A DNA stretch of 61,332 bases from Fictibacillus nanhaiensis (GTDB lineage Bacteria; Bacillota; Bacilli; Bacillales; Fictibacillaceae), in the NCBI GenBank assembly GCA_016401345.1, contig JAEACG010000010.1:1-61332 (forward strand). Reading direction: 5' to 3'. Below, in pieces: positions 445 to 57,192 of the stretch (the stretch's first letter is position 1; the number at the start of each line of letters is the position of its first letter). Position numbers and translations under genes: made by a program. The notes below the pieces were generated by a model, which did not search any database, had not been told where the DNA came from, and saw only the letters and a list, made by a program, of their open reading frames with translations.

Positions 445-514
445 GACTTAATGGAGGTTTGTTTCGACTTAATTCACTCTCATTTTGACTTAATTTTTCT
501 TATTTAGACTTAAT
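445..514. repeat. Phased array 1: GACTTAAT core every 20-21 bp (4 units)
   Basis: The 8-mer GACTTAAT begins at 445, 466, 487 and 507, so the spacings are 21, 21 and 20 bp. The 12-13 bp between cores are AT-rich and dissimilar. A decayed fifth unit may start near 426 (GCCTTTAT). The reverse complement, ATTAAGTC, is the core of the array at 55485. No reading frame explains it and no function is known to me. Confidence 0.85.
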
Positions 515-780
515 TAGAGCCAGCAGATACCCATAGTGGTATTCGCGGGACGCACTCTTTAACGCTTCAAACGATCTCAAAACCCTCAAAATACGAAGAA
601 GATGGCCAAGAGCCATCTTCCACCTCGCGATATTCTTCAGCAAAAGCTCCAAAATCCATCCCAAAAGCCCCACAAGCAGATCCGACAACCATCATCCAAG
701 CCAAAACCTTACTTAAACGCCTCAGATGCCACACACAAATCCGCTAATCAGATCTCCCCATCAACTCCACCGCACATAAT

Positions 781-864
781 TTCACGGTAATCGTGATTTT
801 ATTCACGGTAATTCTCCATATATTCACGGATAAGCTTCATAATTTCACGGATAAAACTTTTTAT
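781..864. repeat. Phased array 2: TTCACGG core every 21 bp (4 units)
   Basis: TTCACGG begins at 781, 802, 823 and 844, exactly 21 bp apart each time. It is followed by TA or ATA and then about 12 bp of unrelated AT-rich sequence. The array lies about 180 bp upstream of the ctsR promoter. Function unknown. Confidence 0.88.
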
Positions 865-921
865 CGAAATTTCGACATCCACCACCGACTTATCTGATTC
901 AGCTCATCTTAACGCACACTT

Positions 922-949
922 CCAACCTCCTCCAAAAGCATCATCTTTT
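922..949 (+). repeat. Solo right flank of the 128-bp repeat family
   Basis: CCAACCTCCTCCAAAAGCAT then CATCTTTT resembles the sequence that follows the ATCAAC end of full copies (for example 11255-11284 and 22061-22090). No body of the element is present, so this looks like a remnant. Confidence 0.5.
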
Positions 950-1006
950 CGACAGAATCATACAGGTTAAGAAGGTAACCAGGAGGCAATAATGGTGGAT
1001 AGAGAT

Positions 1007-1036
1007 TTGCATTTTGGGAAAAAAGCAGGCTATAAT
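1007..1036 (+). promoter_or_regulatory. Sigma-A promoter of the ctsR-clpC operon
   Basis: A perfect -10 TATAAT (1031-1036) stands 18 bp after TTGCAT (1007-1012). The CtsR operator lies directly downstream and would overlap the start site. Confidence 0.75.
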
Positions 1037-1044
1037 ATAACTAT

Positions 1045-1061
1045 AGTCAAAGTTAGTCAAA
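1045..1061 (+). promoter_or_regulatory. CtsR operator
   Basis: Two direct heptads, AGTCAAA-GTT-AGTCAAA, match the CtsR recognition rule (RGTCAAA NAN RGTCAAA) except for the middle spacer base. A partial third heptad (GTCAG) follows at once. The position just downstream of the -10 box fits repression by blocking RNA polymerase. Confidence 0.88.
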
Positions 1062-1080
1062 GTCAGAAGGGGGAGGGGAA

Positions 1081-1548
1081 ATGAGGAATATTTCAGATGT
1101 AATTGAAAATTACTTAAAGCAAATTCTCTCAAGTTCTAATGATCCGTCCATTGAAATTAAGCGGACGGATATTGCTGAACGGTTTCAATGCGTTCCTTCT
1201 CAAATAAACTACGTTATTAACACGAGATTTACGATTGAAAAAGGGTTTGTAGTGGAAAGTAAAAGAGGTGGAGGAGGTTATATTCGGATCATGAAGGTCC
1301 GTACCGAAAGCTCTGCCCACTTAATTGATCACTTAACCACCTTGATTGGTGAAAGGATATCGCAAGGCAACGCAGAAAATGTAATAAAGAGACTTATGGA
1401 AGAAACGATCGTTTCAGAACGAGAAGCGAGACTTATGCTGAGTGTGATGGACAGATCTATTTTAAAACTTAACCTTCCAGAACGAGATGAATTACGAGCA
1501 GAATTATTAAAAGCTATGATAAAAACGTTAAAATATCGAACCACATAG
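1081..1548 (+). CDS. ctsR: Transcriptional repressor CtsR of class III stress genes
   Basis: A 155-residue dimeric repressor that shuts off clp genes at normal temperature. The N-terminal winged helix-turn-helix (about residues 25-70) has the glycine-rich wing tip KR-GGGG; Arg62 is the residue that McsB phosphorylates in characterised homologues. The C-terminal half is the dimerisation domain. The start sits right behind a strong GGGGGAGGGG ribosome site. It is the first gene of the operon with mcsA, mcsB and clpC and is autoregulated through the box at 1045. Confidence 0.97.
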   Translation: MRNISDVIENYLKQILSSSNDPSIEIKRTDIAERFQCVPSQINYVINTRFTIEKGFVVESKRGGGGYIRIMKVRTESSAHLIDHLTTLIGERISQGNAENVIKRLMEETIVSEREARLMLSVMDRSILKLNLPERDELRAELLKAMIKTLKYRTT

Positions 1549-1584
1549 CCCTTTTTTTCATTCTATATAAAGGGAGGGAGCAGA

Positions 1585-2118
1585 ATGAATTGTGAAGAGT
1601 GCCATGAACGTGAAGCGTCATTGCATTTTACAAAAATCATAAATGGGGAGAAAACTGAATTTCACATTTGTGAACATTGTGCCAAAGAAAAAGGAGAATT
1701 CTTGCCGGGGTCGAATTCTTTTTCCATTCACCAATTGCTTTCTGGACTTTTACATGGTGATGGACATGTCCCGAACACACCATCATCTAACTTCATTCCG
1801 CCCTCGTTAAGCTGTGAAAAATGCGGGATGAGTTATTATCAGTTTGCGAAGATCGGGCGCTTTGGGTGTGATAATTGCTACAAAGCGTTTGAGTCGAAAC
1901 TGAATCCAATTTTTAAAAGAGTTCATGGTGGTAACACCTTGCATGCAGGGAAGATTCCACTCCGTGCAGGAAGCAGTATTCAAGAAAAAAAGCAGCTTCA
2001 GCAATTAAAGCAAGCTTTGCAGCAGTATATATTAAATGAGGAATTTGAAAGAGCTGCTGAAACAAGAGATGTCATCAGAGAGATCGAGCACCGCTTGCAA
2101 CAGGGGAGGGATACGTAA
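1585..2118 (+). CDS. mcsA: McsA, activator of protein-arginine kinase McsB
   Basis: A 177-residue adaptor with four CxxC pairs (C3/C6, C29/C32, C77/C80, C95/C98) for zinc or metal binding and a C-terminal UVR-type coiled coil (about residues 139-172). In B. subtilis it binds and activates McsB. The start follows an AAGGGAGGGAG site. It ends 3 bases before mcsB, consistent with coupled translation of the pair. Confidence 0.95.
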   Translation: MNCEECHEREASLHFTKIINGEKTEFHICEHCAKEKGEFLPGSNSFSIHQLLSGLLHGDGHVPNTPSSNFIPPSLSCEKCGMSYYQFAKIGRFGCDNCYKAFESKLNPIFKRVHGGNTLHAGKIPLRAGSSIQEKKQLQQLKQALQQYILNEEFERAAETRDVIREIEHRLQQGRDT

Positions 2119-2121
2119 CCG

Positions 2122-3186
2122 ATGTCTTTGGAACGATTTATCAGTGACGCGATCAGTCCCTGGATGAAACGGGAGGGGCCAGAATCGGATATTGTTCTTT
2201 CGAGCCGTGTCCGACTTGCAAGAAATATTCATCAATATGTTTTTCCCATCGCGGCAGATAAAGAATCGGCTCATGAAGTCATATCAACGATCTCGACATG
2301 TATTAGTGAAGAGAGCGAAGAAGCAGAAAATCTTGAAATGCTGATGATGGAGGAGTTAAAGCCTGTTGAAAAACGGGTACTTGTTGAGAAACATCTGATA
2401 AGTCCCAATTTAGCTGAGCAAGCGAAATATGGTGCGGTTCTCATGAATGCAGATGAATCAGTGAGCATCATGGTCAATGAAGAAGATCATATACGCATTC
2501 AATGTTTAGCACCAGGTTTTCAACTAGAAGAAGTTCTTCATCGGGCGAATGAGATCGATGATAGAATCGAAAAAAACGTTGATTATGCGTTTGATGAAAA
2601 ACGAGGATATTTAACAAGCTGTCCGACGAATGTAGGAACTGGACTTCGTGCCTCTGTTATGATGCATCTCCCAGCGCTCGTTCTGTCAAAAAAGATGAGC
2701 CGCATCATCCCAGCGATCAATCAGCTAGGGTTAGCGGTGAGAGGGATCTATGGGGAAGGTACCGAGGCGCAAGGAAACATTTTTCAAATTTCAAATCAGA
2801 TGACACTGGGCAAGTCGGAAGAGGATATAATGGAAGATCTCGCAGGTGTCGTCATGCAGGTCATCCAACAAGAACGAGCAGCTCGGAAACAGCTGCAGGA
2901 TGGATTGAAATTACAGCTTGAAGACAAGTTATTCCGTTCACTGGGAACGTTAGAGAACTGCCGGATCATCCAATCAAAAGAAGCTGCCAAATGTTTATCA
3001 GATGTGCGGCTTGGCATTGATTTAGAGATTTTACCCGGGATTTCAAAAACGATACTCAATGAACTTATGATACTTACACAACCAGGTTTTCTTCAACAAT
3101 ATGCAGGTGAAGTTCTAACTCCAGAAGAACGTGACATAAGAAGAGCCACTCTAATCAGAGAAAGAATAAAATTGGAAAACCGATAA
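2122..3186 (+). CDS. mcsB: Protein-arginine kinase McsB
   Basis: A phosphagen-kinase fold enzyme that phosphorylates arginines on proteins, marking them for ClpC-ClpP. Visible are the nucleotide-binding stretch [13 protein letters not shown] (23-35), the acidic substrate loop VNEEDHIR (118-125) and the signature [10 protein letters not shown] with the catalytic-region cysteine C167. Length of 354 aa is close to the B. subtilis protein. clpC follows at once. Confidence 0.97.
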
Positions 3187-3200
3187 GGAGCGTGACGAGT

Positions 3201-5621
3201 ATGATGTTTGGTCGTTTTACAGAGAGAGCACAAAAAGTTTTAGCTTTAGCACAAGAAGAAGCGATTCGATTAGGTCATAATAACGTGGGAACAGAACATA
3301 TCCTGCTTGGTTTGATCCGTGAAGGTGAAGGAATTGCAGCGAAAGCTCTTCAAGTTCTTGGACTAGGGCCAGAAAAGATTCAAAAAGAAGTGGAAACATT
3401 GATCGGCCGCGGTCAGGAAGCTGTTCAAACGATTCACTATACGCCTCGTGCTAAAAAAGTGATCGAACTTTCCATGGATGAAGCTCGTAAACTCGGACAT
3501 TCGTACGTGGGAACAGAACACATTCTATTAGGATTGATTCGTGAAGGAGAAGGCGTTGCAGCTCGTGTACTAAACAACCTTGGTGTCAGCCTTAACAAAG
3601 CGCGTCAACAAGTGCTGCAGTTACTAGGAAGCAATGAATCTTCTTCTAGTCATAGAGGTTCATCAGCTAGTGCCAACACACCGACGTTAGACAGCTTAGC
3701 GCGTGATCTAACTGCGATTGCTCGTGAAGGCACACTAGACCCAGTAATCGGGCGTGCGAAAGAAATTCAGCGTGTTATTGAGGTTCTAAGCCGCCGTACG
3801 AAGAACAACCCTGTTTTGATCGGGGAGCCTGGTGTTGGTAAAACAGCTATCGCAGAAGGTCTAGCACAGCAGATCATCAATAACGAAGTGCCAGAAACCC
3901 TTCGTGATAAGCGTGTTATGACGCTTGATATGGGTACAGTTGTAGCAGGAACGAAGTACAGAGGTGAGTTTGAAGATCGTCTGAAAAAAGTAATGGATGA
4001 GATCCGCCAAGCTGGGAACATCATTCTATTCATCGACGAACTTCATACACTGATCGGTGCAGGTGGAGCAGAAGGTGCGATCGATGCATCCAACATTTTA
4101 AAGCCAGCTCTTGCCCGCGGCGAACTTCAATGTATCGGTGCTACAACACTTGATGAGTACAGAAAATATATTGAAAAAGATGCAGCGCTTGAGCGCCGTT
4201 TCCAGCCGATCACGGTTAACGAGCCAACGAAGGATGAAAGTATTCAAATTCTTCAAGGACTTCGCGATCGTTATGAAGCTCACCACCGTGTAACGATTAC
4301 GGATGAAGCGATTGAAGCATCTGTTCAGTTATCTGATCGTTACATCTCAGATCGTTTCTTACCAGATAAAGCGATCGACCTTATTGATGAAGCGGCGTCA
4401 AAAGTTCGCCTTCGTTCATATACAGCTCCGCCGAACTTAAAAGAGCTTGAGCAGAAGCTGGAGGAAGTTCGTAAGGAGAAGGATGCGGCTGTTCAAAGTC
4501 AAGAATTTGAAAAAGCTGCTTCACTTCGAGATTCTGAACAGCGTCTTCGTGAAGAGCTAGAGAAAACGAAGGATGTTTGGAAAGAGAAACAAGGAAAAGA
4601 AAATACAGAAGTAACACCAGAAGATATCGCGCAAGTAGTATCGTCTTGGACGGGAGTTCCGGTTTCTAAACTTGCTGAAGAAGAAACAGAACGCCTTCTG
4701 AAGATGGAAGAGATTTTGCACGATCGTGTTATTGGCCAGTCTGAGGCTGTTACGGCAATCTCTAAAGCTATCCGAAGAGCACGTGCTGGTTTGAAAGATC
4801 CGAAGCGTCCGATCGGCTCGTTCATCTTCTTAGGACCAACAGGTGTAGGTAAAACAGAACTTGCAAGAGCTGTTGCCGAAACACTATTTGGTGATGAAGA
4901 TGCGATTATCCGTATCGATATGTCGGAGTACATGGAGAAGCATACAACATCCCGTCTCGTTGGATCGCCTCCAGGATATGTTGGACACGAAGAAGGCGGC
5001 CAGTTAACAGAGAAAGTTAGAAGAAAGCCTTACTCTGTTATCTTGCTTGATGAGATCGAAAAAGCGCATCCTGAAGTATTCAACATCTTGCTTCAAGTGC
5101 TAGAAGATGGTCGTCTTACTGACTCTAAGGGACGTACAGTCGATTTCCGCAACACGGTAGTAATCATGACTTCAAACGTAGGAGCGAGCACGCTTAAGCG
5201 TAACCGTTCACTAGGGTTTGCTGTTCATAACGAAGGTCAAAAGTACAACGATATGAAGTCTAAGGTAATGGATGAACTGAAGCGTGCATTCCGTCCAGAG
5301 TTCTTGAACCGTATTGATGAGATCATCGTGTTCCATTCTTTAGAAAAAGAGCACTTGCTAAGAATCGTTAGCTTGATGGCTGCATCACTGAAACAACGTT
5401 TAAGTGATCAAGGAATTGAGATCGAGTTGACTCAAGCCGCTCTCGAAAAGATTACGGAAGAAGGATACGATCCAGATTACGGAGCTCGTCCATTGCGTCG
5501 TGCCCTACAGCGTAAGATTGAAGATCGATTATCTGAAGAGCTTCTAAGAGGAAATATCAACAAAGGGCAGACCGTTAAGATTGATGTTGAAGAGAACGAT
5601 TTTGTTGTTCAAACAGTCTAA
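3201..5621 (+). CDS. clpC: ATP-dependent chaperone/protease ATPase ClpC
   Basis: An 806-residue Hsp100 unfoldase that feeds ClpP and uses adaptors such as MecA and McsB. Order: two Clp N repeats (residues ~1-145), AAA-1 with GEPGVGKT (~207), the M-domain coiled coil with a UVR-like segment (~410-460), AAA-2 with GPTGVGKT (~545), C-terminal D2-small domain. I chose ATG 3201 ([10 protein letters not shown]) because AAGGAG at 3185-3190 is well spaced for it and all family members start there; an in-frame GTG at 3192 would add three residues. Confidence 0.97.
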
Positions 5622-5653
5622 CTTTTACCACATATAAGAATATCCTACAAAAG

Positions 5654-5685
5654 ACCCGGAAGACAGACATGTCCTCCGGGTTTTT
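5654..5685 (+). terminator. Terminator of the clpC operon
   Basis: CCCGGAAGAC (5655-5664) pairs with GTCCTCCGGG (5671-5680) with one mismatch, followed by TTTTTG. Confidence 0.88.
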
Positions 5686-5846
5686 GTCGAAAAAATCTTA
5701 GCTGTTCGCCTTTTTTTGCAGAGCTCAAATGGAAGTAGTTGTTAGGTTTTATGTTATGATATTAGTGAATAAATCTTGATATTTTCAGTATTTAACTTAT
5801 TAAAATAGTAAACCTATTTTCCCTTTACAATGATGCTTTGAAAGTG

Positions 5847-5973
5847 GTTGGTTTCCGTTACAGGTGTTCGCTTTCCGCGGGGCGTGCGGTGAGCCCCCTG
5901 CCGCTTTGCGCCTTTAGGGGTCTCTCCTGCCCACTCGTTCCGCAGGAGTCTCACACCTTTCACTTCAATCAAC
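5847..5973 (-). repeat. 128-bp palindromic intergenic repeat, copy A
   Basis: Runs from GTTGGTTTCCGTTACAGGTG to CACTTCAATCAAC and carries the family blocks CGCTTTCCGCGGGGCGTGCG, GTGAGCCCC and CGCAGGAGTCTCACACC. It is inverted relative to copies B, C and E. The ends are imperfect inverted repeats (GTTGAT-like). No transposase is present. Confidence 0.9.
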
Positions 5974-5982
5974 CTTTCTATG

Positions 5983-6031
5983 AAGTCTTTTCAGGGATAC
6001 TCTAGAAAAGTCTTTTCAGTAATACTTTAGA
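5983..6031. repeat. Tandem ~25-bp duplication
   Basis: AAGTCTTTTCAGGGATACTC then TAG at 5983 is repeated as AAGTCTTTTCAGTAATACTT then TAG at 6008. Two units only, next to repeat copy A. Confidence 0.7.
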
Positions 6032-6123
6032 AGCATCAACTCACCAAGCGTCTGAAAGTAGAAACTAAAGGTTATGAAATAGATAGATATTAAAGTGTTA
6101 AGTTTGGAAGAGGAGTTTTTTAG

Positions 6124-7500
6124 ATGGCTAAAGTAAAATCAATCTTTCTTTGCCAAGATTGCGGTTATGAATCTCCGAAATGGATGGGGAAATGTCCAGG
6201 GTGCCATGCGTGGAACACGATGGTGGAGGAAACGATTCGACCTGAAAAAAATATTAGGGGATTAAGCTCTGGCGGAGATAAGAACGTAAAGCAGAAACCC
6301 CAGTCAATAGCAGATGTAAAAAGTGAGCAAGAGCCGCGCATACCGACAAACTATCAGGAATTCAACCGTGTTTTAGGTGGAGGGATCGTTCCAGGCTCAA
6401 TGGTTTTAGTTGGAGGAGACCCCGGAATCGGTAAGTCCACACTATTGCTGCAAACATCAGCGCAGCTTGCACAAAGAGGAGAGCGTGTTCTATACATATC
6501 TGGTGAGGAATCTGTTAAACAGACGAAGCTGCGTGCAGATCGTTTAGATATCGGAGCAAAAGACTTGTTTGTTTTAGCAGAAACAGATCTAGAGCTGATC
6601 GAGCAGGCGATGGCAGATGTGATGCCTTCTGTAATGATCATCGACTCGATTCAAACCGTCTATCGGGCTGAAGTGACTTCAGCTCCAGGAAGTGTATCGC
6701 AAGTACGAGAGTGTACGTCACATTTGATGCGCATGGCGAAAACGAAAGGTATTGCTGTATTTATCGTTGGACATGTTACAAAAGAAGGAAATATCGCCGG
6801 ACCGCGTCTTTTAGAGCATATGGTAGATGCGGTATTGTACTTTGAAGGTGAAAGACATCATACTTTCCGTATCTTACGAGCAGTTAAGAACCGTTTCGGC
6901 TCTACGAATGAAATCGGTGTTTTCGAAATGAAGGAAGTCGGCCTCGAAGAAGTATTAAACCCTTCTGAGATCTTTTTAGAAGAACGTTCGAAAGGGGCAG
7001 CGGGTTCGACAGTAGTTGCGTCTCTTGAAGGAACGCGTCCGATGCTAGTAGAACTTCAGGCTTTAATATCACCAACGAGCTTTGGTAATCCTAGAAGGAT
7101 GGCTACGGGTATCGATCACAACCGTGTATCGCTGCTTATGGCTGTTTTAGAAAAGAGAGTCGGACTGCTGCTTCAGAACCAGGATGCGTATCTGAATGTT
7201 GCAGGTGGAGTTCGGCTGGATGAGCCGGCGATCGATCTGGCTGTTGCGATCAGCATCGCTTCAAGCTTTCGCGATTCACCAACAAAGCCAACAGATGTTA
7301 TGATTGGAGAAATAGGATTAACGGGAGAGGTTAGAAGAGTTTCCCGTATCGAGCAGCGCGTACATGAAGCTGCAAAATTAGGTTTTACGCGAGCTATTAT
7401 ACCTGATAAAAATATAGGCGGCTGGACCGTTCCAAAAGGAATACAAGTCGTCGGAGTATCGACCGTTTATGAGGCGTTACAAGCAGCGTTAGGAGGGTAA
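6124..7500 (+). CDS. radA: DNA repair helicase RadA (Sms)
   Basis: A 458-residue RecA-like ATPase that promotes branch migration and processing of recombination intermediates. It shows the N-terminal zinc finger C10/C13/C24/C27, Walker [11 protein letters not shown] (97-106), the KNRFG motif typical of RadA, and a C-terminal Lon-protease-like domain without protease function. disA begins 8 bases downstream; in B. subtilis RadA and DisA interact functionally. Confidence 0.97.
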
Positions 7501-7508
7501 AGCATATT

Positions 7509-8582: not shown

Positions 8583-8677
8583 ATGGAACATTCTGAGTAA
8601 AAAAAGGAATTTTCTATTTTTTGCACGTTTTTAATACGGTCATTTTGTAAATAATGATTAGGGGAGGTGAATCAGGC

Positions 8678-9769
8678 ATGCTAAAAAGAATTGTTCAACT
8701 ATTTTTCATTGTAATAGGGGGCATGCTAGGCTATCTATATATACCAGATCTCATTCGTGTACTTAATTTCGGTGATCTTCCGAATCAAGTAACATCCCCA
8801 TATGTCGGGGCAGTGATTGGTGCACTTATATTATTTTTATCTACATTCTGGCTGTCCGATTACGTAGTAGGTTTAATCCGTTGGGCTGAGGAGACGGTTG
8901 TAAAAGCTCCAGCAACTGATCTTTTATCCGGGACGATGGGACTTATTATCGGACTGATCGTAGCCTTTTTAATCCAGTCACCGTTAAGCTCTATGGATAT
9001 TGTTGTGGTCAGCTCGATCCTGCCGATCGCGATCACATTCCTGCTCGGTTATTTAGGCTTTCAAGTAGGTTTTAAAAAGAGAGACGAGTTGATTCAGCTG
9101 TTCTCTTTGAAAAGCCAAGGGAAAGAACGAAAAAAAGAAGCAGAGATCGAAAAGCCAGGTGGTAAGTATAAGATTTTAGATACGAGCGTCATTATCGATG
9201 GCCGAGTGGCTGATATCTGTCAAACTGGCTTTTTAGAAGGTCCGCTTATCATTCCTCGTTTTGTTTTAGAAGAATTGCAATATATTGCTGATTCCTCAGA
9301 TGTTTTAAAACGTAACAGAGGGCGCCGTGGCCTTGATATTCTAAATCGTATTCAAAAAGAGCTTTCTATGAAAGTTGAAATCTATGAAGGTGACTTTGAA
9401 GAGGTAACAGAAGTTGATAGCAAGCTTGTAAAGCTCGCTCAACTGTTATCCGGTGTCGTCGTTACGAATGATTTTAACTTGAACAAAGTATGTGAACTGC
9501 AAAACGTTGCAGTACTAAATATTAATGACCTTGCAAATGCGGTAAAACCCGTTGTTCTTCCTGGCGAAGAGCTTGTTGTACAAGTGATCAAAGACGGAAA
9601 AGAACAGAGTCAAGGTGTAGGCTATCTGGATGATGGAACGATGATCGTCGTAGAAGATGGTCGTGATTATGTAGGAAAAACGATTGATGTTGTTGTAACA
9701 TCCGTACTTCAAACATCAGCGGGTAGAATGATTTTTGCCAAAAAGAAACTATTAGAAAAAGCATTGTAA
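8678..9769 (+). CDS. yacL: Membrane PIN/TRAM-domain protein YacL
   Basis: A 363-residue membrane protein with four hydrophobic segments in the first ~135 residues, a PIN nuclease-like domain beginning at [15 protein letters not shown], and a C-terminal TRAM domain (likely nucleic-acid binding). ATG 8678 (MLKRIVQL) was preferred over an in-frame ATG at 8654, because GGGGAGGTGA at 8661-8670 lies inside the longer version and is spaced for 8678. Cellular role is not settled; an RNA-directed function is inferred from the domains. Confidence 0.92.
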
Positions 9770-12812: not shown

Positions 12813-12841
12813 ATAGTAAAAGAAACTTATAAAAACATGTA

Positions 12842-13097
12842 AAACGCAGATGAGGAAAGTAGGCTAGCGCCTTTTCATAGTAGAGAGAACCATCGCCGGC
12901 TGAAAGTGGTTCATGAAAATGCTTGCTGAAGTGCCCCTCGGAGTCCCTTGCCGAAAGTTTTAGTAGGTTTGGGCGGCAACTCCCCGTTATGGAGCTTAAG
13001 GGAACAGGTGAGTTTTAAATTAAGCCTGTTAAACAGAGTGGAACCGCGTCTATTAGTACGTCTCTGTGTCATATATGGCACAGGGGCGTTTTTTATT
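12842..13097 (+). promoter_or_regulatory. T-box leader controlling cysE-cysS
   Basis: The T-box sequence AGAGTGGAACCGCG is at 13035-13048, and an intrinsic terminator follows (ACGTCTCTGTG near 13058 pairing with CACAGGGGCGT, then TTTTTT). Stem I begins near GATGAGGAAAGTAGG, with the distal hairpin GAGAACC...GGTTC. The expected Cys specifier UGC occurs in the right area (12920-12922, also 12924-12926), but I cannot fix which is read. Uncharged tRNA-Cys should favour the antiterminator and turn on cysE and cysS. In B. subtilis the same leader sits between gltX and cysE. Confidence 0.93.
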
Positions 13098-20704: not shown

Positions 20705-20729
20705 ATATACTGTTAAACACAAACGCATC

Positions 20730-20865
20730 AGATGAATGCCGTAGACAGCAGGAGCCAACTGGCTTAAATCTTCCTGCCGAGGTGAAGCATCGTAAGCTCA
20801 TTAGTTAATTACTTATGACTTTAGATACTCACGCCTCCATGTCTCGACATGGAGGCTTTGTTTTT
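20730..20865 (+). promoter_or_regulatory. L10 leader (autoregulatory RNA) with attenuator
   Basis: The leader before rplJ carries the L10-leader blocks (ATGAATGCCGTAGACAGCAG, AAATCTTCCTGCCGAGGTGA) and ends in a strong terminator: GCCTCCATGT (20833-20842) with ACATGGAGGC (20847-20856), then TTTGTTTTT. In the known L10 leader the L10-L12 complex binds and favours termination. Confidence 0.92.
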
Positions 20866-20910
20866 GGACAAAACCTGCGGTGATGCAATCATTTTACAGG
20901 AGGTGTAATA

Positions 20911-35224: not shown

Positions 35225-35352
35225 GTTGATTTCCGTTTCAGGTTGCTCGCTTTCCGCGGGGCAGGCGGTGAGCCCCTTGCCACTTTGTGCCTTTAAGGGT
35301 CTCACCTGACCGCTCGTCCCGCAGGAGTCTCGCACCCTCCACTCCAATCAAC
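35225..35352 (-). repeat. 128-bp palindromic intergenic repeat, copy F
   Basis: Begins GTTGATTTCCGTTTCAGGTT and ends CACTCCAATCAAC, with CGCTTTCCGCGGGGCAGGCG inside. Same orientation as A and D. It lies where B. subtilis carries ybaC between tuf and rpsJ. Confidence 0.92.
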
Positions 35353-35769
35353 TGATCAAAGAAGAGAATGAACAAATACGCCAATTGAAACATGCAGTAA
35401 GAAAAAAAGATTGATTTTTAAGTATAAATGAATCAATAGTGAAGAAATCTCTTTCCAATTAGCATTGAGTAGCTACTTCTGAATGTCAGAATGTACCTGA
35501 AATAGCTTGAAACACAATCTATCCAAAAATAAAGATGATGAATCCAGAAATTTAATAGCTGAATCCAAAAGTTGGGCCCTTGAATCCCCGAGTTTTGGTC
35601 GTGAATCCACAAATAGTAAAATATATATGACATGCGATTACAGTCGGCTGAAAAACTGAATAACCACATGCGGATCAGCAACGCATTATCTGAATCACCA
35701 CTACCAATCGCATTTCTTCTATATATATAGAAGAAACACATTCAAATATGCAAAAGAAGAAAAAGGAAG
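35353..35769. other. Gap between str and S10 operons, no gene
   Basis: AT-rich sequence with phased array 3 (35518-35622). A 102-codon open frame on the - strand (35433-35741) has no ribosome site and crosses the array; its heptapeptide pattern (WIxxxNF) is simply the 21-bp period read in frame. I see no other feature here. Confidence 0.6.
35518..35622. repeat. Phased array 3: TGAATCC core every 21 bp (4 perfect + 1 decayed units)
   Basis: TGAATCC begins at 35539, 35560, 35581 and 35602, exactly 21 bp apart; a decayed unit TCTATCC is at 35518, again 21 bp before the first. The core is followed by A/C-rich bases and then unrelated sequence. It ends ~150 bp before the S10 promoters. Confidence 0.88.
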
Positions 35770-48520: not shown

Positions 48521-48552
48521 TCAATGTACTCCGTGACATAAGGAGGTTATAA

Positions 48553-48669
<117 letters not shown>

Positions 48670-48690
48670 TATACAGGAGGTGCAAAAATT

Positions 48691-49056: not shown

Positions 49057-49076
49057 GTAAAGGAGGTAAACTCTAA

Positions 49077-49472: not shown

Positions 49473-49563
49473 CAATATACACGGTATATATTTCTATAAC
49501 TTGTCTATAATGGTTATAGTGAAAGTTTTGGTAAATGATAAGTCGGAATGCCTATGGGGAATT

Positions 49564-49585
49564 TCGGCTGGAAACCTCCAGCCGA
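49564..49585 (+). promoter_or_regulatory. Perfect 9-bp hairpin in the rpoA leader
   Basis: TCGGCTGGA (49564-49572), loop AACC, TCCAGCCGA (49577-49585). It ends 15 bases before the rpoA ribosome site (GAAGGAGGG). No T run, so not a standard terminator. The upstream CTTGTCTATAATGG may hold a weak promoter. Confidence 0.6.
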
Positions 49586-49615
49586 GATTCGACGTTTGAA
49601 GGAGGGTTCAGTTGA

Positions 49616-50560
49616 ATGATCGAAATCGAAAAGCCAAGAATTGAGACGGTTGAAATCAGCGACGATGCCACATACGGAAAGTTTGTTGTTGAACCACTTG
49701 AACGTGGATACGGGACTACACTAGGCAACTCCTTGCGTCGTATCTTGTTGTCCTCACTACCTGGTGCAGCAGTTACATCTATTCAGATCAATGGCGTATT
49801 GCATGAGTTCTCTACAGTTGAAGGTGTAGTTGAAGATGTTACAACCATCATCTTAAACTTAAAGAAACTTGCAATGAAGATTTACTCTGATGAAGAGAAG
49901 ACACTTGAAATCGATGTACAAGGTGACGGTGTTGTAACAGCTGGCGACATTACTCATGACAGCGATGTTGAAGTCCTTAATCCGGATCTTCATATCGCAA
50001 CACTAGCAAAAGGAGCTCATTTCCAAATGAAGCTTCATGCTAAACGTGGTCGTGGTTATGTACAGGCAGAAGGCAATAAACGCGAAGACCTGCCGATCGG
50101 GGTAATTCCTGTTGATTCAATTTACACGCCAATTTCGCGTGTGAACTATCAAGTGGAAAACACTCGTGTAGGACAAGTAACAAACTATGATAAGCTAACG
50201 CTTGATGTATGGACAGATGGGAGCATTCGTCCAGAGGAAGCAGTTTCTCTTGGTGCGAAGATCATTAGCGAACATTTAAACATTTTTGTTGGCTTAACAG
50301 ATCAAGCTCAGAACGCTGAGATTATGGTAGAAAAAGAAGAAGACCAAAAAGAAAAAGTACTTGAGATGACGATCGAAGAACTTGATCTTTCTGTTCGTTC
50401 TTATAACTGCCTAAAGCGTGCTGGCATTAATACAGTTCAAGAACTTGCGAATAAGTCTGAAGAAGACATGATGAAAGTACGCAACCTTGGAAAGAAATCT
50501 CTTGAAGAAGTTCAAGAGAAACTTGAAGAGCTAGGTCTTTCATTACGCGCTGACGATTAA
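49616..50560 (+). CDS. rpoA: RNA polymerase subunit alpha
   Basis: 314 aa. N-terminal assembly domain ([20 protein letters not shown] then [10 protein letters not shown]), linker, and C-terminal domain for UP elements and activators ([39 protein letters not shown]). Confidence 0.97.
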
Positions 50561-50618
50561 TTCGTAATACGCGCTTTTTCAAGACGAGAGAGAAACGCGC
50601 AGAGGAGGGAATACAAGC

Positions 50619-50981
50619 ATGGGATACCAAAAGTTAGGTCGTGTATCTGCGGTTCGTAAAGCAATGCTTCGTGATTTAGCTACTGATTTAATCATCAACG
50701 AGCGTATTGAAACTACAGAAGCACGTGCAAAAGAAGTTCGTAAATTTGCTGAGAAAATGATTACGCTTGGTAAGCGTGGAGACCTTCATGCTCGCCGTCA
50801 AGCTGCATCGTTCCTTCGTAACGAAGTAGCAGACGCTGAGTCTGGACAAAGATCTCTACAAAAGCTTTTCAGTGATCTTGCACCTCGCTATGCAGAGCGT
50901 AACGGTGGTTACACTCGCATCGCAAAAATCGGCCCTCGCCGTGGTGATGGTGCACCAATGGTTATCATTGAATTAGTTTAA
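50619..50981 (+). CDS. rplQ: 50S ribosomal protein L17
   Basis: 120 aa. It shows [40 protein letters not shown] and [14 protein letters not shown]. Last gene of the ribosomal superoperon. Confidence 0.97.
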
Positions 50982-50993
50982 TAAAACGTATGA

Positions 50994-51040
50994 AAGGGCG
51001 GGATCAAGTCTTCAATGACAATCTTGCCCTTTTTTATTTT
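50994..51040 (+). terminator. Terminator of the ribosomal superoperon
   Basis: AAGGGCGGGATCAAGTC pairs imperfectly with GACAATCTTGCCCTT (51017-51031), followed by TTTTTATTTT. Confidence 0.85.
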
Positions 51041-51176
51041 ATCCTGAACCTATAAGTTGTATCAGGAATTCGTGAGTGGATAGGGAATTTGACCTCACTA
51101 AAAGTAACAAAGCTTTAAATTTAGAATTGAGCAGAGAGCAGCTTAGAATGAGCAGCAGTTAAGAGGAGGATGTCAC

Positions 51177-52007
51177 ATGGAAAACATCATTACCGTTAAA
51201 GATGTGACCTTTTATTATCCGGGAGAAGAGACACCTACGCTTAAAGGTGTAACGTTAGATGTACACAAAGGGGAATGGCTATCGATCGTGGGCCATAACG
51301 GCTCTGGGAAGTCCACGTTGGCAAAAATGCTCAACGGGCTGTTGTTGCCTAATGAGGGGGCTGTATATGTCTCACAGTACACGACAGGCCTTCCAGACGA
51401 CATCTGGGAAATAAGAAGACTTGTCGGGATGGTCTTTCAAAATCCAGATAACCAGTTTGTGGGAACGAGCGTACAAGATGACATCGCGTTTGGCCTGGAG
51501 AATTTCGGTGTTCCGCGAGACGAGATGGTAAAGCGTATCAATGAAAGTATAGAGAGAGTGGGAATGGAAGCTTTCTTAAACCAGGAACCTCATCAATTAT
51601 CCGGTGGGCAGAAGCAACGAGTGGCAATAGCCGGTATATTGGCACAGAAACCTTCTGTTATCGTTTTGGATGAGGCGACATCGATGCTCGATCCAATCGG
51701 TCGAATTGAAGTGATCGAGACTGTGCGCGAACTGAATGAAAAAGAGGGCATCACTGTCATTTCTATCACTCATGATTTAGAGGAAGCGCTAAGTGCAGAC
51801 AGAGTTGTCGTCATGAAAATGGGAGAGAAGGCAGCTGAAGGCGTACCTGAAGACATTTTTCAGCAGCGTGAACTTTTGAAATCGGCCGGTCTGGATTTAC
51901 CGTTTTCACTAAAGTTAAGTGAGGCTCTTCGCCAACAAGGTGTGGAGCTTGATAAAAGCTATTTAACGCAGGAAGAGCTGGTGAATGCATTATGGAAATT
52001 AGCATAA
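51177..52007 (+). CDS. ecfA1: ECF transporter ATPase EcfA1
   Basis: 276 aa ABC ATPase of the energizing module for vitamin and metal uptake. Walker A GHNGSGKST, Q-loop VFQNPDNQF, signature LSGGQKQRVAIAG, Walker B VIVLDEATSMLDP. AGAGGAGG precedes it. Its end overlaps ecfA2 by 16 bases. No S component is encoded nearby, so this is a group II (shared) module. Confidence 0.96.
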   Translation: MENIITVKDVTFYYPGEETPTLKGVTLDVHKGEWLSIVGHNGSGKSTLAKMLNGLLLPNEGAVYVSQYTTGLPDDIWEIRRLVGMVFQNPDNQFVGTSVQDDIAFGLENFGVPRDEMVKRINESIERVGMEAFLNQEPHQLSGGQKQRVAIAGILAQKPSVIVLDEATSMLDPIGRIEVIETVRELNEKEGITVISITHDLEEALSADRVVVMKMGEKAAEGVPEDIFQQRELLKSAGLDLPFSLKLSEALRQQGVELDKSYLTQEELVNALWKLA

Positions 52008-52858
52008 ACCGTCTAGAGCATAGATACATGGAGGGAACTCCGTTCGAGAGGCGTGCCCTGCACGATATTAACCTCGACATCGCGGATGGTACTTTCCTTG
52101 CTTTGATCGGACACACTGGCTCTGGAAAGTCTACACTTATTCAACATCTTAACGGGCTATTAAAGCCTTCAGCAGGCTCAATAAAGATGGGCAGTACTGA
52201 ACTTAAGGCTGGCGGTAAGAAACAAGATTTAAAATCACTTCGAAAAAAAGCCGGCATTGTTTTTCAGTATCCTGAGCATCAGCTTTTTGAAGAAACGGTT
52301 GAAAAAGATATCATGTTTGGTCCACGGAATTTTGGTGTGTCTGAGGAAACAGCTCGACTCACAGCTGCTAAAGTGATCGAGATGGTTGGGCTTCCCGAGA
52401 GTGTTCTGCAGAAGTCTCCCTTTGACTTAAGCGGTGGCCAGATGCGTCGTGTGGCGATTGCAGGTGTCCTTGCCATGAATCCCGAAGTGCTGATCTTGGA
52501 CGAGCCTACAGCAGGACTTGATCCAGCTGGGCGTGTTGAGATTATGGAGCTGTTCTATTCCCTGCATGAGAGAAATAATCTCACTACGATACTTGTTACT
52601 CACAGTATGGAAGACGCTTCGAGATACGCAGATGAGATTGCTGTGATGCATAAAGGTGAACTGTATCTACATGGTAAGCCGACTGACATCTTTAGTGAGC
52701 GAGAAGCTCTCCAAAAAGCCGGATTAGATGTGCCAGAGACCGTTCAATTTTTACAAAAGTGGAATGAGAAGTCTGGTTTGAATCTGGCATTATCGAAGTT
52801 TACAGTGGACGAGCTGGCTAAACAAGTTAGTCAGAGTCTGAAGAAGAGGGGGAACTAA
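51992..52858 (+). CDS. ecfA2: ECF transporter ATPase EcfA2
   Basis: 288 aa partner ATPase. Walker [11 protein letters not shown]-loop [14 protein letters not shown], signature [13 protein letters not shown], Walker [14 protein letters not shown]. Forms the heterodimer with EcfA1 below EcfT. Confidence 0.96.
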
Positions 52859-52859
52859 T

Positions 52860-53657
52860 ATGCTGCAGAATGTTATTATCGGGCAGTATTACCCAGCTTC
52901 CTCTCCACTTCATCGAATGGATTCCCGCTCGAAGCTCATTGCTGCCTTCTTTTATTTGTTTATCGTCTTTTTGGCGAACAACTGGCTTACTTATGGACTA
53001 CTAATCGCTTTTACGTTTGTAACGATCAGTTTGTCAAAAGTTCCACTTCGTTTTTTATATAAAGGATTAAAGCCGATTCTTTTACTCGTCGTGTTTACGA
53101 TGCTTTTGCATATCTTCTTAACAAAAGAAGGCGACCTGCTTTATAAAGCGGGCTTTCTTGAAATTTACGAAGGCGGAGTGATTCAAGGGATTTTCATTGC
53201 CCTAAGGCTTTTATTACTTGTTATGATGACGTCGCTCTTAACCTTAACAACAACACCGATCGATATTACAGATGGTTTGGAACACTTGTTAGGACCTTTG
53301 AAAAAGTGGAAACTTCCTGTTCATGAGTTCGCATTGATGATGTCGATCTCACTCAGGTTTATTCCAACACTCTTACAAGAGACGGAAAAAATCATGAAAG
53401 CGCAGATGGCACGTGGTGCTGATTTCACGAGCGGACCGATCAAAGAACGAGCAAAGGCTTTTGTACCGCTGTTAGTTCCGTTATTCGTCTCTTCGTTTAA
53501 GCGGGCTGAAGAACTCGCTCTTGCGATGGAGGCGAGAGGTTATCGTGGTGGTGAAGGCAGAACGCGACTTCGAGCGCTAGAGTGGCATCAACGTGATACG
53601 TTTGCACTGCTTTTATTAGCATTGCTGACTCTTGCGCTATTCTTATTACGCAATTAA
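52860..53657 (+). CDS. ecfT: ECF transporter transmembrane subunit EcfT
   Basis: 265 aa with four to six hydrophobic helices and the coupling motifs around [10 protein letters not shown] and [10 protein letters not shown] (the Ala-Arg-Gly helices that dock on the ATPases). Starts one base after ecfA2, with AGAAGAGGGGG as ribosome site. Confidence 0.95.
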
Positions 53658-53670
53658 AAGGAGATTGAAC

Positions 53671-54423
53671 ATGGCTCGTATGAAAGTAACCGTAGCCTAT
53701 GATGGTACTGGGTTTGCCGGATACCAAATACAGCCTAGCGGCAGAACGGTGCAAGGAACGATTCAGGCCGTCCTGCAAAAGATGCACAAAGGGGAACCTG
53801 TAGGAATCTATGCCTCAGGACGCACGGATGCGGGTGTTCATGCCATCGGTCAAGTGTTTCATTTTGATACACCCATGGAGATTCCTTCTGAAGCTTGGGG
53901 GAAGGCATTGAATGCGATGCTTCCGAATGATATTCTAATAAAAGACGTAGAGATGGTCAGTGATTCTTTTCATTCTCGTTTCTCTGCAACAGGTAAAGAG
54001 TATCACTATAAAATTTTAAGAAGTAAGCAACCAGATGTTTTTCAAAGAAATCATATGTTTCATTTTCCCTACTCCTTAAACGTAGAGGATATGAAGCAAG
54101 CTGCATCGTTATTTTTAGGTACACATGACTTTACCTCATTTTCATCAGCAAAGTCGGAAGTGGAAGATAAAATTCGTACGATCTTTGCTTTAGATGTTGA
54201 GGAAGAAGGCAACGTCCTAACGCTGAAGGTAAGAGGCAGTGGTTTTTTATATAACATGGTTCGCATTCTTGTTGGTACACTTTTAGAAGTTGGTCAAGGA
54301 AAGCGAAAAACTGAGGAGATCTCAGCGATTATTAAAAGCAAAGACCGTGCGCTCGCTGGAAAAACAGCTCCGGCAAACGGACTCTATCTCTTTCATGTAG
54401 AATATGAAGATAAAACGGAATAA
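53671..54423 (+). CDS. truA: tRNA pseudouridine synthase A
   Basis: 250 aa. Modifies tRNA positions 38-40. The catalytic Asp is D53 in ASGRTDAGVHA; GSGFLYNMVRILVGTLLEVG is the C-terminal signature. ATG 53671 behind AAAGGAGA is right; the longer frame from 53632 overlaps ecfT. Confidence 0.95.
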   Translation: MARMKVTVAYDGTGFAGYQIQPSGRTVQGTIQAVLQKMHKGEPVGIYASGRTDAGVHAIGQVFHFDTPMEIPSEAWGKALNAMLPNDILIKDVEMVSDSFHSRFSATGKEYHYKILRSKQPDVFQRNHMFHFPYSLNVEDMKQAASLFLGTHDFTSFSSAKSEVEDKIRTIFALDVEEEGNVLTLKVRGSGFLYNMVRILVGTLLEVGQGKRKTEEISAIIKSKDRALAGKTAPANGLYLFHVEYEDKTE

Positions 54424-54437
54424 TATTTAGGATACGC

Positions 54438-54466
54438 TTGACATCGTTGTTTATATATTATAAGAT
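54438..54466 (+). promoter_or_regulatory. Promoter of rplM-rpsI
   Basis: Perfect TTGACA (54438-54443), 17 bp, TAAGAT (54461-54466). Confidence 0.75.
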
Positions 54467-54469
54467 ATT

Positions 54470-54560
54470 ATTTGGTATTTCTACAGATATCGTCCACATG
54501 CCCCGTGTAGATATCTCGGGAAATGTTCACATGAATATAATGAAATTTGATTGAAGATAC
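54470..54560 (+). promoter_or_regulatory. L13 leader RNA (probable)
   Basis: The leader before rplM shows paired arms AGATATC (54485-54491) and GATATCT (54510-54516) around CACATGCCCCGTG, in the place of the known Firmicutes L13 leader. The match is by position and general form; I could not run a covariance model. Confidence 0.6.
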
Positions 54561-54574
54561 AGGAGGGAAAACAC

Positions 54575-55012
54575 ATGCGTACGACTTTCATGGCGAAAGC
54601 TTCTGAAGTAGAACGTAAATGGTTTGTGATCGACGCTGAAGGCAAAACACTTGGACGTCTATCCAGTGAAGTTGCATCTATCCTTCGCGGTAAGCATAAG
54701 CCTATTTATACACCACACGTTGACACTGGTGATCACGTAATCATCATCAACGCTGAGAAGATTGAATTAACAGGTAAGAAATTAACAGACAAAATTTACT
54801 ACCGCCACACTGGTCACCCAGGTGGACTGCGTACGAGAACTGCATTAGAAATGCGTACAACTCGTCCAGTTCAAATGCTTGAGCTAGCAATCAAAGGTAT
54901 GCTTCCAAAGAACAGCCTTGGTCGCCAAATGTTCAAAAAGCTTCACGTTTACGCTGGAGCTGAGCACAACAACCAAGCACAAAAACCTGAAAACTACGAG
55001 TTACGCGGATAA
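54575..55012 (+). CDS. rplM: 50S ribosomal protein L13
   Basis: 145 aa. It shows [40 protein letters not shown] and [23 protein letters not shown] 54575 behind CAGGAGGGA; a longer frame from 54551 overlaps the leader. Confidence 0.97.
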
Positions 55013-55028
55013 AAAGGAGGGTATTTAC

Positions 55029-55421
55029 GTGGCACAAGTACAATATTATGGCACTGGACGTCGTAAGCACTCCGTAGCGCGTGTACGATTAGTTCCTGGT
55101 GAAGGCCGTATCGTAATCAACGGACGTGACATTGACGAATTTTTCGGATTAGAAACATTAAAGCTTATCGTTAAGCAACCACTTAACACAACTGAAACAA
55201 CTGACAAGTATGACGTATTAGTTACTGTTCATGGCGGTGGATACACTGGACAAGCAGGAGCTATCCGTCACGGTATCTCTCGTGCGCTTCTTGAAGCAGA
55301 TCCTGAGTACCGCGGTTCTCTTAAAGCAGCTGGATTCCTTACTCGTGACGCTCGTATGAAAGAGCGTAAGAAGTACGGACTTAAAGGCGCTCGTCGTGCA
55401 CCTCAGTTCTCAAAACGTTAA
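55029..55421 (+). CDS. rpsI: 30S ribosomal protein S9
   Basis: 130 aa, GTG start behind AAAAGGAGGG. It shows [20 protein letters not shown] and the C-terminal tail RRAPQFSKR that touches P-site tRNA. Cotranscribed with rplM. Confidence 0.97.
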
Positions 55422-55438
55422 TTTCTATTACGTTTTTC

Positions 55439-55477
55439 AAAACCCTGTTCTCTTTTTTAGAGAGCGGGGTTTTTTTA
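55439..55477 (+). terminator. Terminator after rpsI
   Basis: AACCCTGTTCTCT, loop TTTTT, AGAGAGCGGGGTT, then TTTTTT; arms pair with G-U wobbles. Confidence 0.9.
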
Positions 55478-55484
55478 TTTGTGA

Positions 55485-55640
55485 ATTGCGTCTAGTTCGA
55501 GAAGATTGAGTCTAATTCCGAACCATTAAGCCTTTAATCGTGAAAAATTAAGTCTTAATCCAAATAATTAAGTCTAATTTAAAATAATTAAGTCAAAAAC
55601 GAAAAATTAAGTCAAAAACGAAAAAATTAAGTCTAACGCA
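55485..55640. repeat. Phased array 4: ATTAAGTC core every ~20 bp (8 units)
   Basis: Cores begin at 55485 (ATTGCGTC), 55505 (ATTGAGTC), 55525 (ATTAAGCC), 55547, 55567, 55587, 55606 and 55626 (all ATTAAGTC). Spacings are 20, 20, 22, 20, 20, 19 and 20 bp. Cores decay toward the rpsI side. Between them the DNA is mostly A-rich. The core is the reverse complement of that of array 1. It lies after the rpsI terminator. Confidence 0.9.
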
Positions 55641-55776
55641 GATCTTATCGTGCCCTGCCTTTTTCCCCTCCATAATGCCATAAAGAGTTATTCCCATCTT
55701 TTATGAAGTGTCGTGAAGCCATCTCTGGAGAAAATATAGATATGGAAAACACAACATGATGAAAGGGGAGGTATTA

Positions 55777-56217
55777 ATGGCAATCGTATTAAACAACTTT
55801 AAAGAAAAGCAACGCTTCAAAAAAGAAACGTTCGAGCGAAAAGTACTTCGGGACTTATCTCTTGCTACCATAAAAAAAGAATTTCAGCGTTTGTTTCAAC
55901 CATTTTTTCAATACTCGCTTCTTTATCAAAATGACATTGAAGATGCGTGCATCGATATGGCGATCGATTCTTATCTCTTAGGTGCAGGCTACAGCCGATT
56001 TGCGTATCATGGAGAAACATTAGAAAAGATTAAGGAAAGAGCATATGCAAAACAACAGGCAATCGCAGATGGCCTTTTTGAATATTGGCAGTTCTGGTGC
56101 TGGGGAACAGAAATGATGATGGAATCCCTTCATCTTTGCTGTGAGGCATTCGTTCATATTTGGTGGATGGAAGGCTACAAAAACGGTGAAAAACGCTACC
56201 GAATGAAGTTGCAATAA
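55777..56217 (+). CDS. ybaK: YbaK family protein (DUF2521)
   Basis: 146 aa, no signal or membrane segment. It resembles B. subtilis YbaK in its layout, with an N-terminal charged stretch, the EDACIDMAIDSYLLGAGYSR region and the C-terminal WWMEGYKNGEKRYRMK. Function unknown. ATG 55777 behind AAAGGGGAGG fits better than 55756. It precedes cwlD as in B. subtilis. Confidence 0.85.
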   Translation: MAIVLNNFKEKQRFKKETFERKVLRDLSLATIKKEFQRLFQPFFQYSLLYQNDIEDACIDMAIDSYLLGAGYSRFAYHGETLEKIKERAYAKQQAIADGLFEYWQFWCWGTEMMMESLHLCCEAFVHIWWMEGYKNGEKRYRMKLQ

Positions 56218-56231
56218 TCGCTAAACAGTTA

Positions 56232-56257
56232 TAAATTTCTTCTTGTCCCATATACAT
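56232..56257 (+). promoter_or_regulatory. Possible sporulation sigma promoter of cwlD
   Basis: ATAAA (56231-56235) lies about 13 bp before CATATACAT (56249-56257), loosely like sigma-E -35/-10 boxes. Relatives express cwlD from sigma-E and sigma-G promoters, but this reading is only suggestive. Confidence 0.3.
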
Positions 56258-56289
56258 AGTGATATATGGCTTGTATAGGGGGACAAAAC

Positions 56290-57015
56290 ATGAAGAAGTG
56301 GGTGAAGGGAGCCGCATTTGCACTTGGATGCGCTGTCCTTATCTTTATTTTCACCTATCATTTTTTAGATGATGATTCGTGGCGCTCGTGGAACATGCCG
56401 CTCTCTGGAAAGATTATCGTAATCGACCCAGGCCATGGCGGTGCTGACGGTGGTGCTGTTGGTGATGGAGAAGTTCTTGAAAAAGAGATCGCATTAAACA
56501 TTTCCATGTTGCTTCGAGATTATTTACAAGAAGCGGGAGCACTTGTCATCATGACACGTGAAACAGACACGGACCTCGCGGACGAAGGTACAAAAAAACT
56601 GCGACATCGCAAATGGGAAGATTTAAAAGAGCGAAAAAAAATTATTAACGAAAATCATGCGGACTTATTTATTTCGATTCACTTAAATTCTTTGCCTTCA
56701 TCCAGGTGGAGAGGCGCTCAAGTCTTTTATCATCCCGGAAAAGAAGACGGAGAAGCCGTATCTAAATTTATACAAGACGAAATCAAAAGAAATCTAAATA
56801 ATACGGATCGGTTTGCAAAATCCATAGAAGGTTTATACTTGCTGCGGACTGCAGAAGTGCCAGGAGCGCTAGTCGAAGTCGGTTTCTTATCCAATCCATC
56901 AGAACGCGAGCTGTTAAAAACAGAATCGTACCAAAAAAGTATAGCGGCATCGATCTACCAAGGTATGCTACGATTTTATACAAATGAAACACCACCAACA
57001 TCTCCTCTTGATTAG
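56290..57015 (+). CDS. cwlD: N-acetylmuramoyl-L-alanine amidase CwlD (spore cortex)
   Basis: 241 aa. An N-terminal membrane anchor or signal (about 6-25) and an Amidase_3 domain: zinc ligands H49 in DPGHGGADGG, E64 in LEKEIALN, His in SIHLNS, and catalytic Glu in LVEVGFLSNPSE. With PdaA it makes the muramic-delta-lactam needed for cortex lysis at germination. ATG 56290 behind TAGGGGGAC. Confidence 0.95.
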   Translation: MKKWVKGAAFALGCAVLIFIFTYHFLDDDSWRSWNMPLSGKIIVIDPGHGGADGGAVGDGEVLEKEIALNISMLLRDYLQEAGALVIMTRETDTDLADEGTKKLRHRKWEDLKERKKIINENHADLFISIHLNSLPSSRWRGAQVFYHPGKEDGEAVSKFIQDEIKRNLNNTDRFAKSIEGLYLLRTAEVPGALVEVGFLSNPSERELLKTESYQKSIAASIYQGMLRFYTNETPPTSPLD

Positions 57016-57040
57016 AGGGGGTGTTTCTCTATTTTCATGT
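56988..57040 (+). terminator. Terminator at the cwlD end
   Basis: AAACACC and CTCCTC before the stop codon pair with GAGGGG and GTGTTT after it, followed by CTCTATTTTC. Imperfect, moderate support. Confidence 0.5.
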
Positions 57041-57066
57041 GCTCGCTTTTTGGGCGAGTAATTTGG

Positions 57067-57192
57067 AGTGGACAGTAAAAATACCGAAGTGGACAGTAAA
57101 TATGTAAAAGTGGACAGTATTTCTTTGAAAGTGGACAGTAAATTTCAATAAGTGGACAGTATTTTCATAAAAGTCGACAGTAAGTGCTCATA
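57067..57192. repeat. Phased array 5: AGTGGACAGTA core every 21 bp (6 units)
   Basis: AGTGGACAGTA begins at 57067, 57088, 57109, 57130 and 57151, and AGTCGACAGTA at 57172: five spacings, all exactly 21 bp. The 10 bp between cores differ in sequence and are AT-rich. Longest core and cleanest period of the five arrays. It lies between cwlD and salA. Confidence 0.93.

Follow-up and report, generated by a model that had tools for sequence, protein, structure and literature searches.

Plasmid iterons are direct repeats spaced about two turns of the DNA helix apart. Five intergenic arrays with a comparable spacing lie in the stretch analysed here (the window), the whole contig C2 of 61,332 bases in the 26-contig, 4.28-Mb genome of Fictibacillus nanhaiensis, where a short word, the core, recurs every 19 to 21 bp between spacers of other sequence (Table 1). 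Unlike iterons, the arrays are scattered over the chromosome in dozens of copies and use many words. Their closest described counterparts are the 20-21 nt Bacillus repeats published by Subirana and Messeguer in 2021 (PMC8161180), which in the main text of that paper have a constant length, a variable sequence and an unknown function, and are called enigmatic; they carry species-specific short words, and a nucleoid protein is proposed there. The arrays agree with these repeats in their period of 20-21, noncoding location, several families per genome, species specificity and short conserved word in each unit, so that a first-pass annotation of the window, which had suggested an undescribed class, was mistaken on this point. 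The lineage specificity has to be qualified, as the word of one family (F3) is also found in Neobacillus, Bacillus sp. OV166 and Planococcus.

Direct repeats are also found at the ends of certain transposons. The ends of the IS21 family (PMC10122671) resemble the arrays in carrying multiple direct repeats, which in IS21 are recognised by the transposase, but the accessible text of that report gives them two repeats per end, 23 bp apart, in elements with two ends and the genes istA and istB. The right ends of Tn7-like elements, as described in the accessible portions of three reports (PMC11406308, PMC13370975, PMC8649781), resemble the arrays in a one-sided TGT terminus, which 21 of 36 arrays have as TGTCG, in direct sites about two helical turns apart, in a word particular to each element and in a place 3' of a gene. 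The arrays differ from them in having TGTCG instead of a free TGTNNNNN, in steps mostly of 21 bp against 20, in the absence of tns or tniQ genes beside the arrays examined, and in that no left end was found.

Here we report that the arrays are real and that they belong to a class already described. Five findings are new relative to the published class: constraint acts on the core alone, many arrays have a TGTCG terminus facing them from one side, most arrays lie 3' of genes, words are swapped at orthologous gaps, and three real Tn7-like right ends are built in a similar way. The main text of PMC8161180 reports neither these features (TGTCG terminus, core and spacer rates, gap word swapping) nor a likeness to transposon ends. 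We tentatively propose, with rather more doubt than confidence, that the arrays are orphan right-end-like arrays of Tn7-type transposons, putative TnsB-like sites kept as protein-binding sites.

Phasing, placement and constraint

All five arrays claimed by the first-pass annotation are present, with minor corrections to coordinates and copy number. It had correctly given exactly 21 bp for three of the five (array 4 steps by 19-20), and its count of eight copies in array 4 is reached if degenerate ones are included, only five copies of ATTAAGTC being exact. The words carried by the arrays include GACTTAAT, GGACAGTA and CCGTGAA. Genome-wide, the pattern GACTTAAT-N12-14-GACTTAAT has 43 matches and GTGGACAGTA-N8-12-GTGGACAGTA has 24, against 0 for each pattern read backwards.

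The scan for phasing covered 452,859 bases: the window, 19 stretches of the genome chosen for their arrays of family F1 or F3, and one other stretch. Chains of at least three units of an exact 7-mer numbered 30 at steps of 20/21 and 26 at 21/22, against 0 to 3 for each of the remaining period pairs between 12 and 40. No chain arose in any of three first-order Markov shuffles of the same bases (0, 0 and 0), which speaks against the concern, raised in advance, that shuffled sequence of equal composition might be phased as often. Nine of the 30 chains at 20/21 are made of words other than those of F1 and F3, seven of them outside the window. Nearly all steps between exact cores are 20, 21 or doubles of these: F3 has 152 at 21, 28 at 42 and 1 at 20, and F1 has 68 at 21, 30 at 20, 2 at 19 and 8 at 40-42.

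Genes were called as simple picks of open reading frames (ORFs), those shorter than 200 aa that overlapped an array having been dropped beforehand. With these calls the arrays are noncoding, just one of 36 lying within an ORF; nine are in convergent gaps, 17 in tandem gaps, one in a divergent gap and eight at the ends of stretches. Background gaps of at least 100 bp comprise 41 convergent, 176 tandem and 52 divergent cases (convergent versus divergent, p = 0.011), and with divergent gaps holding only one of 27 arrays, most arrays are found 3' of genes. The F3 arrays lie 0-77 bp 3' of a same-strand gene in eight of eight cases, and F1 arrays share the strand of the gene on their 5' side in seven of the 11 with a called gene, four more F1 arrays being at contig ends. 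A place after a terminator had also been claimed; judged by eye, most F3 arrays do follow one, the exceptions being those of stretches L084 and L099, whose first units come 11 and 0 bp after the preceding ORF. No Rfam family matched at the arrays.

Core, spacer and flank were compared at four orthologous F3 arrays, with units matched from the 5' end and no pairing by likeness. The count covers 24 species pairs of equal unit number (G010 was excluded at one locus), accepts outer units with up to five core mismatches, and draws on species pairs that are not independent. Differences between species affect 80 of 1,419 core positions (5.6%) and 399 of 1,290 spacer positions (30.9%), with 455 in 2,706 aligned columns (16.8%) of the 60-bp flanks. 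The spacer diverges faster than the flanks, the core changes about five times less than the spacer, and arrays gain or lose units between species by multiples of 21 bp. These loci thus do not show the signature of a simple repeat, in which complete, identical units decay with age. An earlier count of 4.2% versus 17.5%, in which units had been paired by spacer likeness and cores filtered, is superseded. Novelty apart, these results support the first-pass picture of one shared build that carries many different words, is phased with the helix, is constrained only in the core and is placed behind genes, as would suit an array of bound proteins.

The TGTCG head and Tn7-like right ends

A head was scored where TGTCG occurs within 60 bp of an array, in a set of 36 arrays, 30 from this genome and six from G017. 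TGTCG faces the array in 21 of the 36 and has the reverse orientation in none, compared with 6.7% in 4,000 draws of random places; the 21 headed arrays are not all independent, because some are rRNA-operon paralogues. By eye, TGTCG stands 7-8 bp, or about one turn more, ahead of a degenerate first core in F1, F4, F6 and the families of G017, and in F3 and F5 it falls within the last or first unit itself. The head reads TGTCGAA in F2 and many F1 arrays, with a second degenerate box 10 bp on in the long F1 heads, TGTCGAC in F3 and F4, and TGTCGG in F5.

Three Tn7-like right ends from related genomes, two of them in this genus, were compared with the arrays; each element has its own site word. 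The right end of G103, located 3' of glmS, consists of TGTTGTAG and four AATAAAG.TTGATA-like sites with a spacing of exactly 20 bp; the genes tnsA, tnsB and tnsC come next. In G010, TGTTGAAT precedes four copies of GGGTACT at 1593, 1613, 1633 and 1653 of L315, and in G009, TGTTCACC precedes three copies of GTAACT at 9365, 9385 and 9405 of L317, the spacing again being exactly 20 bp in both. TGT starts 23, 25 and 25 bases past the end of the glmS ORF in G103, G010 and G009, respectively; the glmS genes of G010 and G009 were identified via their C-terminal peptide, with TniQ and TnsC-like matches in the same regions.

Because real Tn7-type ends in related genomes are built nearly alike, the arrays may themselves be free-standing transposase-binding ends. 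Each row would then offer a TnsB-like transposase direct binding sites at intervals of two helical turns. Each word would be the candidate site of one TnsB-like protein, whose footprint could fix the length of the unit, and the differences between words would follow from the separate specificity of each transposon family. A weaker part of the proposal concerns retention by the host: a bound end might divert a matching element from nearby DNA (target immunity) or soak up its transposase. That the dozens of single ends are immunity beacons, with one word per invader and words replaced over evolution, warning transposase off, is an extension that we consider unlikely. Tn7-like genes occur in the array-poor genomes G007 and G013 and in the array-rich G009 and G010 alike, so the pattern of presence and absence lends immunity no support. 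Mutual exclusion of arrays and Tn7-like elements, which G007 and G013 had suggested, is broken by the other two.

Besides this last distribution, several observations weigh against regarding the arrays as orphan transposon ends. Fifteen of the 36 arrays have no detected TGTCG, two families end differently (CGAACG.GTAATAAATATAA.AACACGTA), and the Neobacillus-type and Planococcus loci have a facing TGTCG at one of 13 arrays and a reversed one at one of 13. The motif lies beside the upstream gene in many F1 arrays and on the far side in F3. Real ends have only TGT in common with TGTCG, and their sites are exactly 20 bp apart, whereas F3 steps are nearly all 21 and F1 has both. An inverted pair of exact cores within 4 kb, as a second end would provide, was found for none of 25 arrays, with a single inverted copy in three (F4, F5 and F6 yielded no array at the exact-core threshold of this search). 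Searches of this genome turned up neither a TniQ nor, at 1e-10, a match to one TnsB, although divergent transposases could escape such a search, and it has one PF00665 gene, a frame of 313 aa. No array word occurs at any located Tn7-like end, although one site of the element in G007 and G013 includes ACTTAAT, which equals seven letters of the F1 word, perhaps by chance. Among 11 other Tn7-like neighbourhoods scanned, that of G103 alone ended in a clearly phased chain. With no second end, no TniQ or TnsB match and no shared word, the arrays look like ends without being the ends of any element found here.

In G007, stretches L166-L169 hold a Tn7-like element with TnsA, TnsB, TnsC and two TniQ genes, and an 8.5-kb stretch of G013 is 93% identical to it. 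This element was considered as a source of array words and set aside, its located end beginning with TGTGAG and having sites spaced unlike those of the arrays; its second end was not located. As for transposon ends of the rve type, the profile PF00665 matches nothing in 11 of the 18 genomes of the genus, array-rich ones included. We had taken this absence to exclude Tn7-like ends, and withdrew the argument because the profile misses some TnsB proteins, that of G103 matching only Mu-transpos_C.

Distribution of words and the arrays of the window

Among 34 genomes of the family, 11 have the F3 pair, and 10 of these 11 belong to the 18 genomes of the genus. The F1 pair turned up in 16 of 60 relatives, all but one of which are from the genus, and its reversed control gave five matches in G018 and one in G027. 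Phased chains number six in 200 kb of G017, mostly of words not on the window list, and two in 100 kb of G018; there are none in 200 kb of G007, 100 kb of G022 or 88 kb of G027. In a collection of named genomes the F3 pair was found in 59 stretches, of which 43 are from Fictibacillus, nine from Neobacillus, Bacillus sp. OV166 or Planococcus, and seven from other phyla; by eye, six of these seven are 7-bp repeats of CAGTGGA and one is a lone pair. Identically phased arrays of the F3 word, with other-word arrays alongside, occur in Neobacillus novalis, N. soli, Bacillus sp. OV166 and Planococcus beigongshangi. A plasmid collection gave no match to arrays 1 and 5, and a phage collection none to array 5, in BLAST searches with the low-complexity filter on. 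Viral contigs contain no F3 pair, and their three matches to an F1 triple appear unrelated.

Words change while the gap remains. The tuf-rpsJ gap carries F4 in G000, G012 and G005, a GCGAGTT word in G006 (with a remnant in G009) and a AGGTGAAAAC word in G015 and G010. At another orthologous gap, five of the seven species examined have F3 and F5, and the other two have an F4-type array. The gap 3' of rpsI holds one to five copies of ATTAAGTC in seven species, in most of them mixed with ATTGAGTC or ATTAAGCC, and in two species without ATTAAGTC it holds only ATTGAGTC, in two and five copies. Array 2 was found in four of five other species examined.

At the Neobacillus-type loci L197, L203 and L210 and the Planococcus locus L184, array words are common in one half and different in the other: CCACTT follows TTACTGT, TTATCGG or TATCAA, and AGTATTT follows GGAA, GTGGAC or CCGGAT. 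Such half-sharing would suit a two-domain DNA-binding protein. In G018 (L251, 9724-9890), two GACAATAAA arrays of four and three units stand inverted, face to face, within about 170 bp; this is the sole clear inverted pair with the same word that we noticed.

Table 1. Arrays and heads in the 61,332-base window, with unit starts and steps
Feature	Position	Strand	Content and location	Unit starts (steps, bp)
Head of array 1	407..444	+	TGTCGA at 407, then TTTAGCGAACGGCCTTTATTTTTGTTTTTA; like the heads before most F1 arrays	
Array 1 (family F1)	445..514	+	Four copies of GACTTAAT; 3' of 5S rRNA (5S at 129-244)	445, 466, 487, 507 (21, 21, 20)
Array 2 (family F2)	781..850	+	Four copies of TTCACGG	781, 802, 823, 844 (every step 21)
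Head of array 2	851..877	-	Terminates in TCGACA, 872-877 (TGTCGA on the - strand)	
Array 3 (family F4)	35518..35608	-	Four copies of TGAATCC and one degenerate copy; tuf-rpsJ gap	35539, 35560, 35581, 35602 (every step 21); degenerate copy at 35518, one step before
Array 4 (family F1)	55485..55633	-	Five exact copies of ATTAAGTC and degenerate copies; 3' of rpsI; TGTCG head looked for, none found	55547, 55567, 55587, 55606, 55626 (20, 20, 19, 20); ATTGAGTC at 55505, ATTAAGCC at 55525, a weaker copy near 55485
Array 5 (family F3)	57067..57182	+	Five copies of AGTGGACAGTA and a terminal AGTCGACAGTA (TCGACA at 57174); 3' of cwlD	57067, 57088, 57109, 57130, 57151, then AGTCGACAGTA one step further (every step 21)

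Several F1 and F6 arrays are bracketed by an inverted repeat, which reads GGGGTAT at one side and TACCC...GGTAT at the other (window 355-560; L096 500-760; L089 19440-19600). Stretch L087 has two F1 arrays, at 5832 and 16844, 11 kb apart with their heads outward, and G005, G006 and G010 have arrays with this same distance and orientation. A dispersed repeat of about 135-150 bp at 35226-35360 of the window (GTTGATTTCCGTTTCAGG...CCGCGGGGC...CCGCAGGAGTCTCGCACC...CTCCAATCAACT) is also intergenic in G003, G006, G009, G010, G012 and G016; array 5 apparently lies inside a remnant of it (about 57040-57065). Elsewhere in the window, 12838-13068 is a T-box leader and 20721-20871 a leader of ribosomal protein L10.

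Alternative readings and significance

The arrays might instead belong to host chromosome architecture, with one or more sequence-specific host proteins bound next to each other along a single helix face 3' of transcription units, as barriers or topological boundaries. The BIME/REP elements of enterobacteria resemble arrays so understood by place, not by sequence. Core-only constraint at stable orthologous places and helical steps speak for such boundaries, as does the position 3' of genes, with one of 27 arrays in a divergent gap and F3 close behind a same-strand gene in all eight cases; no Tn7-type transposase was found in this genome, and the main text of PMC8161180 also proposes a nucleoid protein. 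However, many unrelated words per genome would require many proteins or one of loose specificity, words are swapped at the same gap, the TGTCG terminus is left unexplained, and G007 is without arrays over 200 kb. We consider this possibility somewhat unlikely, though only slightly less probable than the orphan-end proposal. Plain minisatellites, in which slippage multiplies units that then decay, could account for gains and losses in multiples of 21 bp and for cases in G017 and G006 where adjacent spacers of an array are identical and point to recent duplication. They are very improbable as a general explanation: the whole unit is not conserved among copies, the roughly fivefold lower rate of change in the core, counted with units anchored by position, largely refutes them, and a single word recurs at many loci, with one fixed period and a head outside the units.

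Two further readings turn on the flanking genes and on the head. If the words acted as RNA-level 3' elements in transcripts that extend past gene ends, F3 arrays would be expected on the strand of the upstream gene, as all eight are, and the arrays of L084 and L099 directly follow an ORF. F1 arrays, however, keep to the strand of the 5'-side gene in only seven of 11, many arrays lie (by eye) behind a terminator, no Rfam family is found at them, and steps of two DNA turns are not something that RNA requires; we consider such a role very improbable. The Spo0A box is TGTCGAA, and the heads could be Spo0A boxes of a sporulation regulator whose partner binds the array. F2 and many F1 heads have exactly this sequence, the long F1 heads adding the second degenerate box, but the heads of F3 and F4 (TGTCGAC) and of F5 (TGTCGG) depart from it and arrays elsewhere are mostly headless; we consider this reading most improbable.

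The listings of literature searches showed no paper on such arrays, solo transposon ends or a Tn7 link. If the arrays are indeed orphan Tn7-type right ends, this would explain both the fixed length and the unrelated sequences of the published Bacillus intergenic repeats. Should a TnsB-like footprint set the length and the specificity of each element set the word, the puzzle would reduce to finding the matching transposases, and were immunity or titration the reason for their retention, the ends would amount to a passive, genome-wide defence against transposons.

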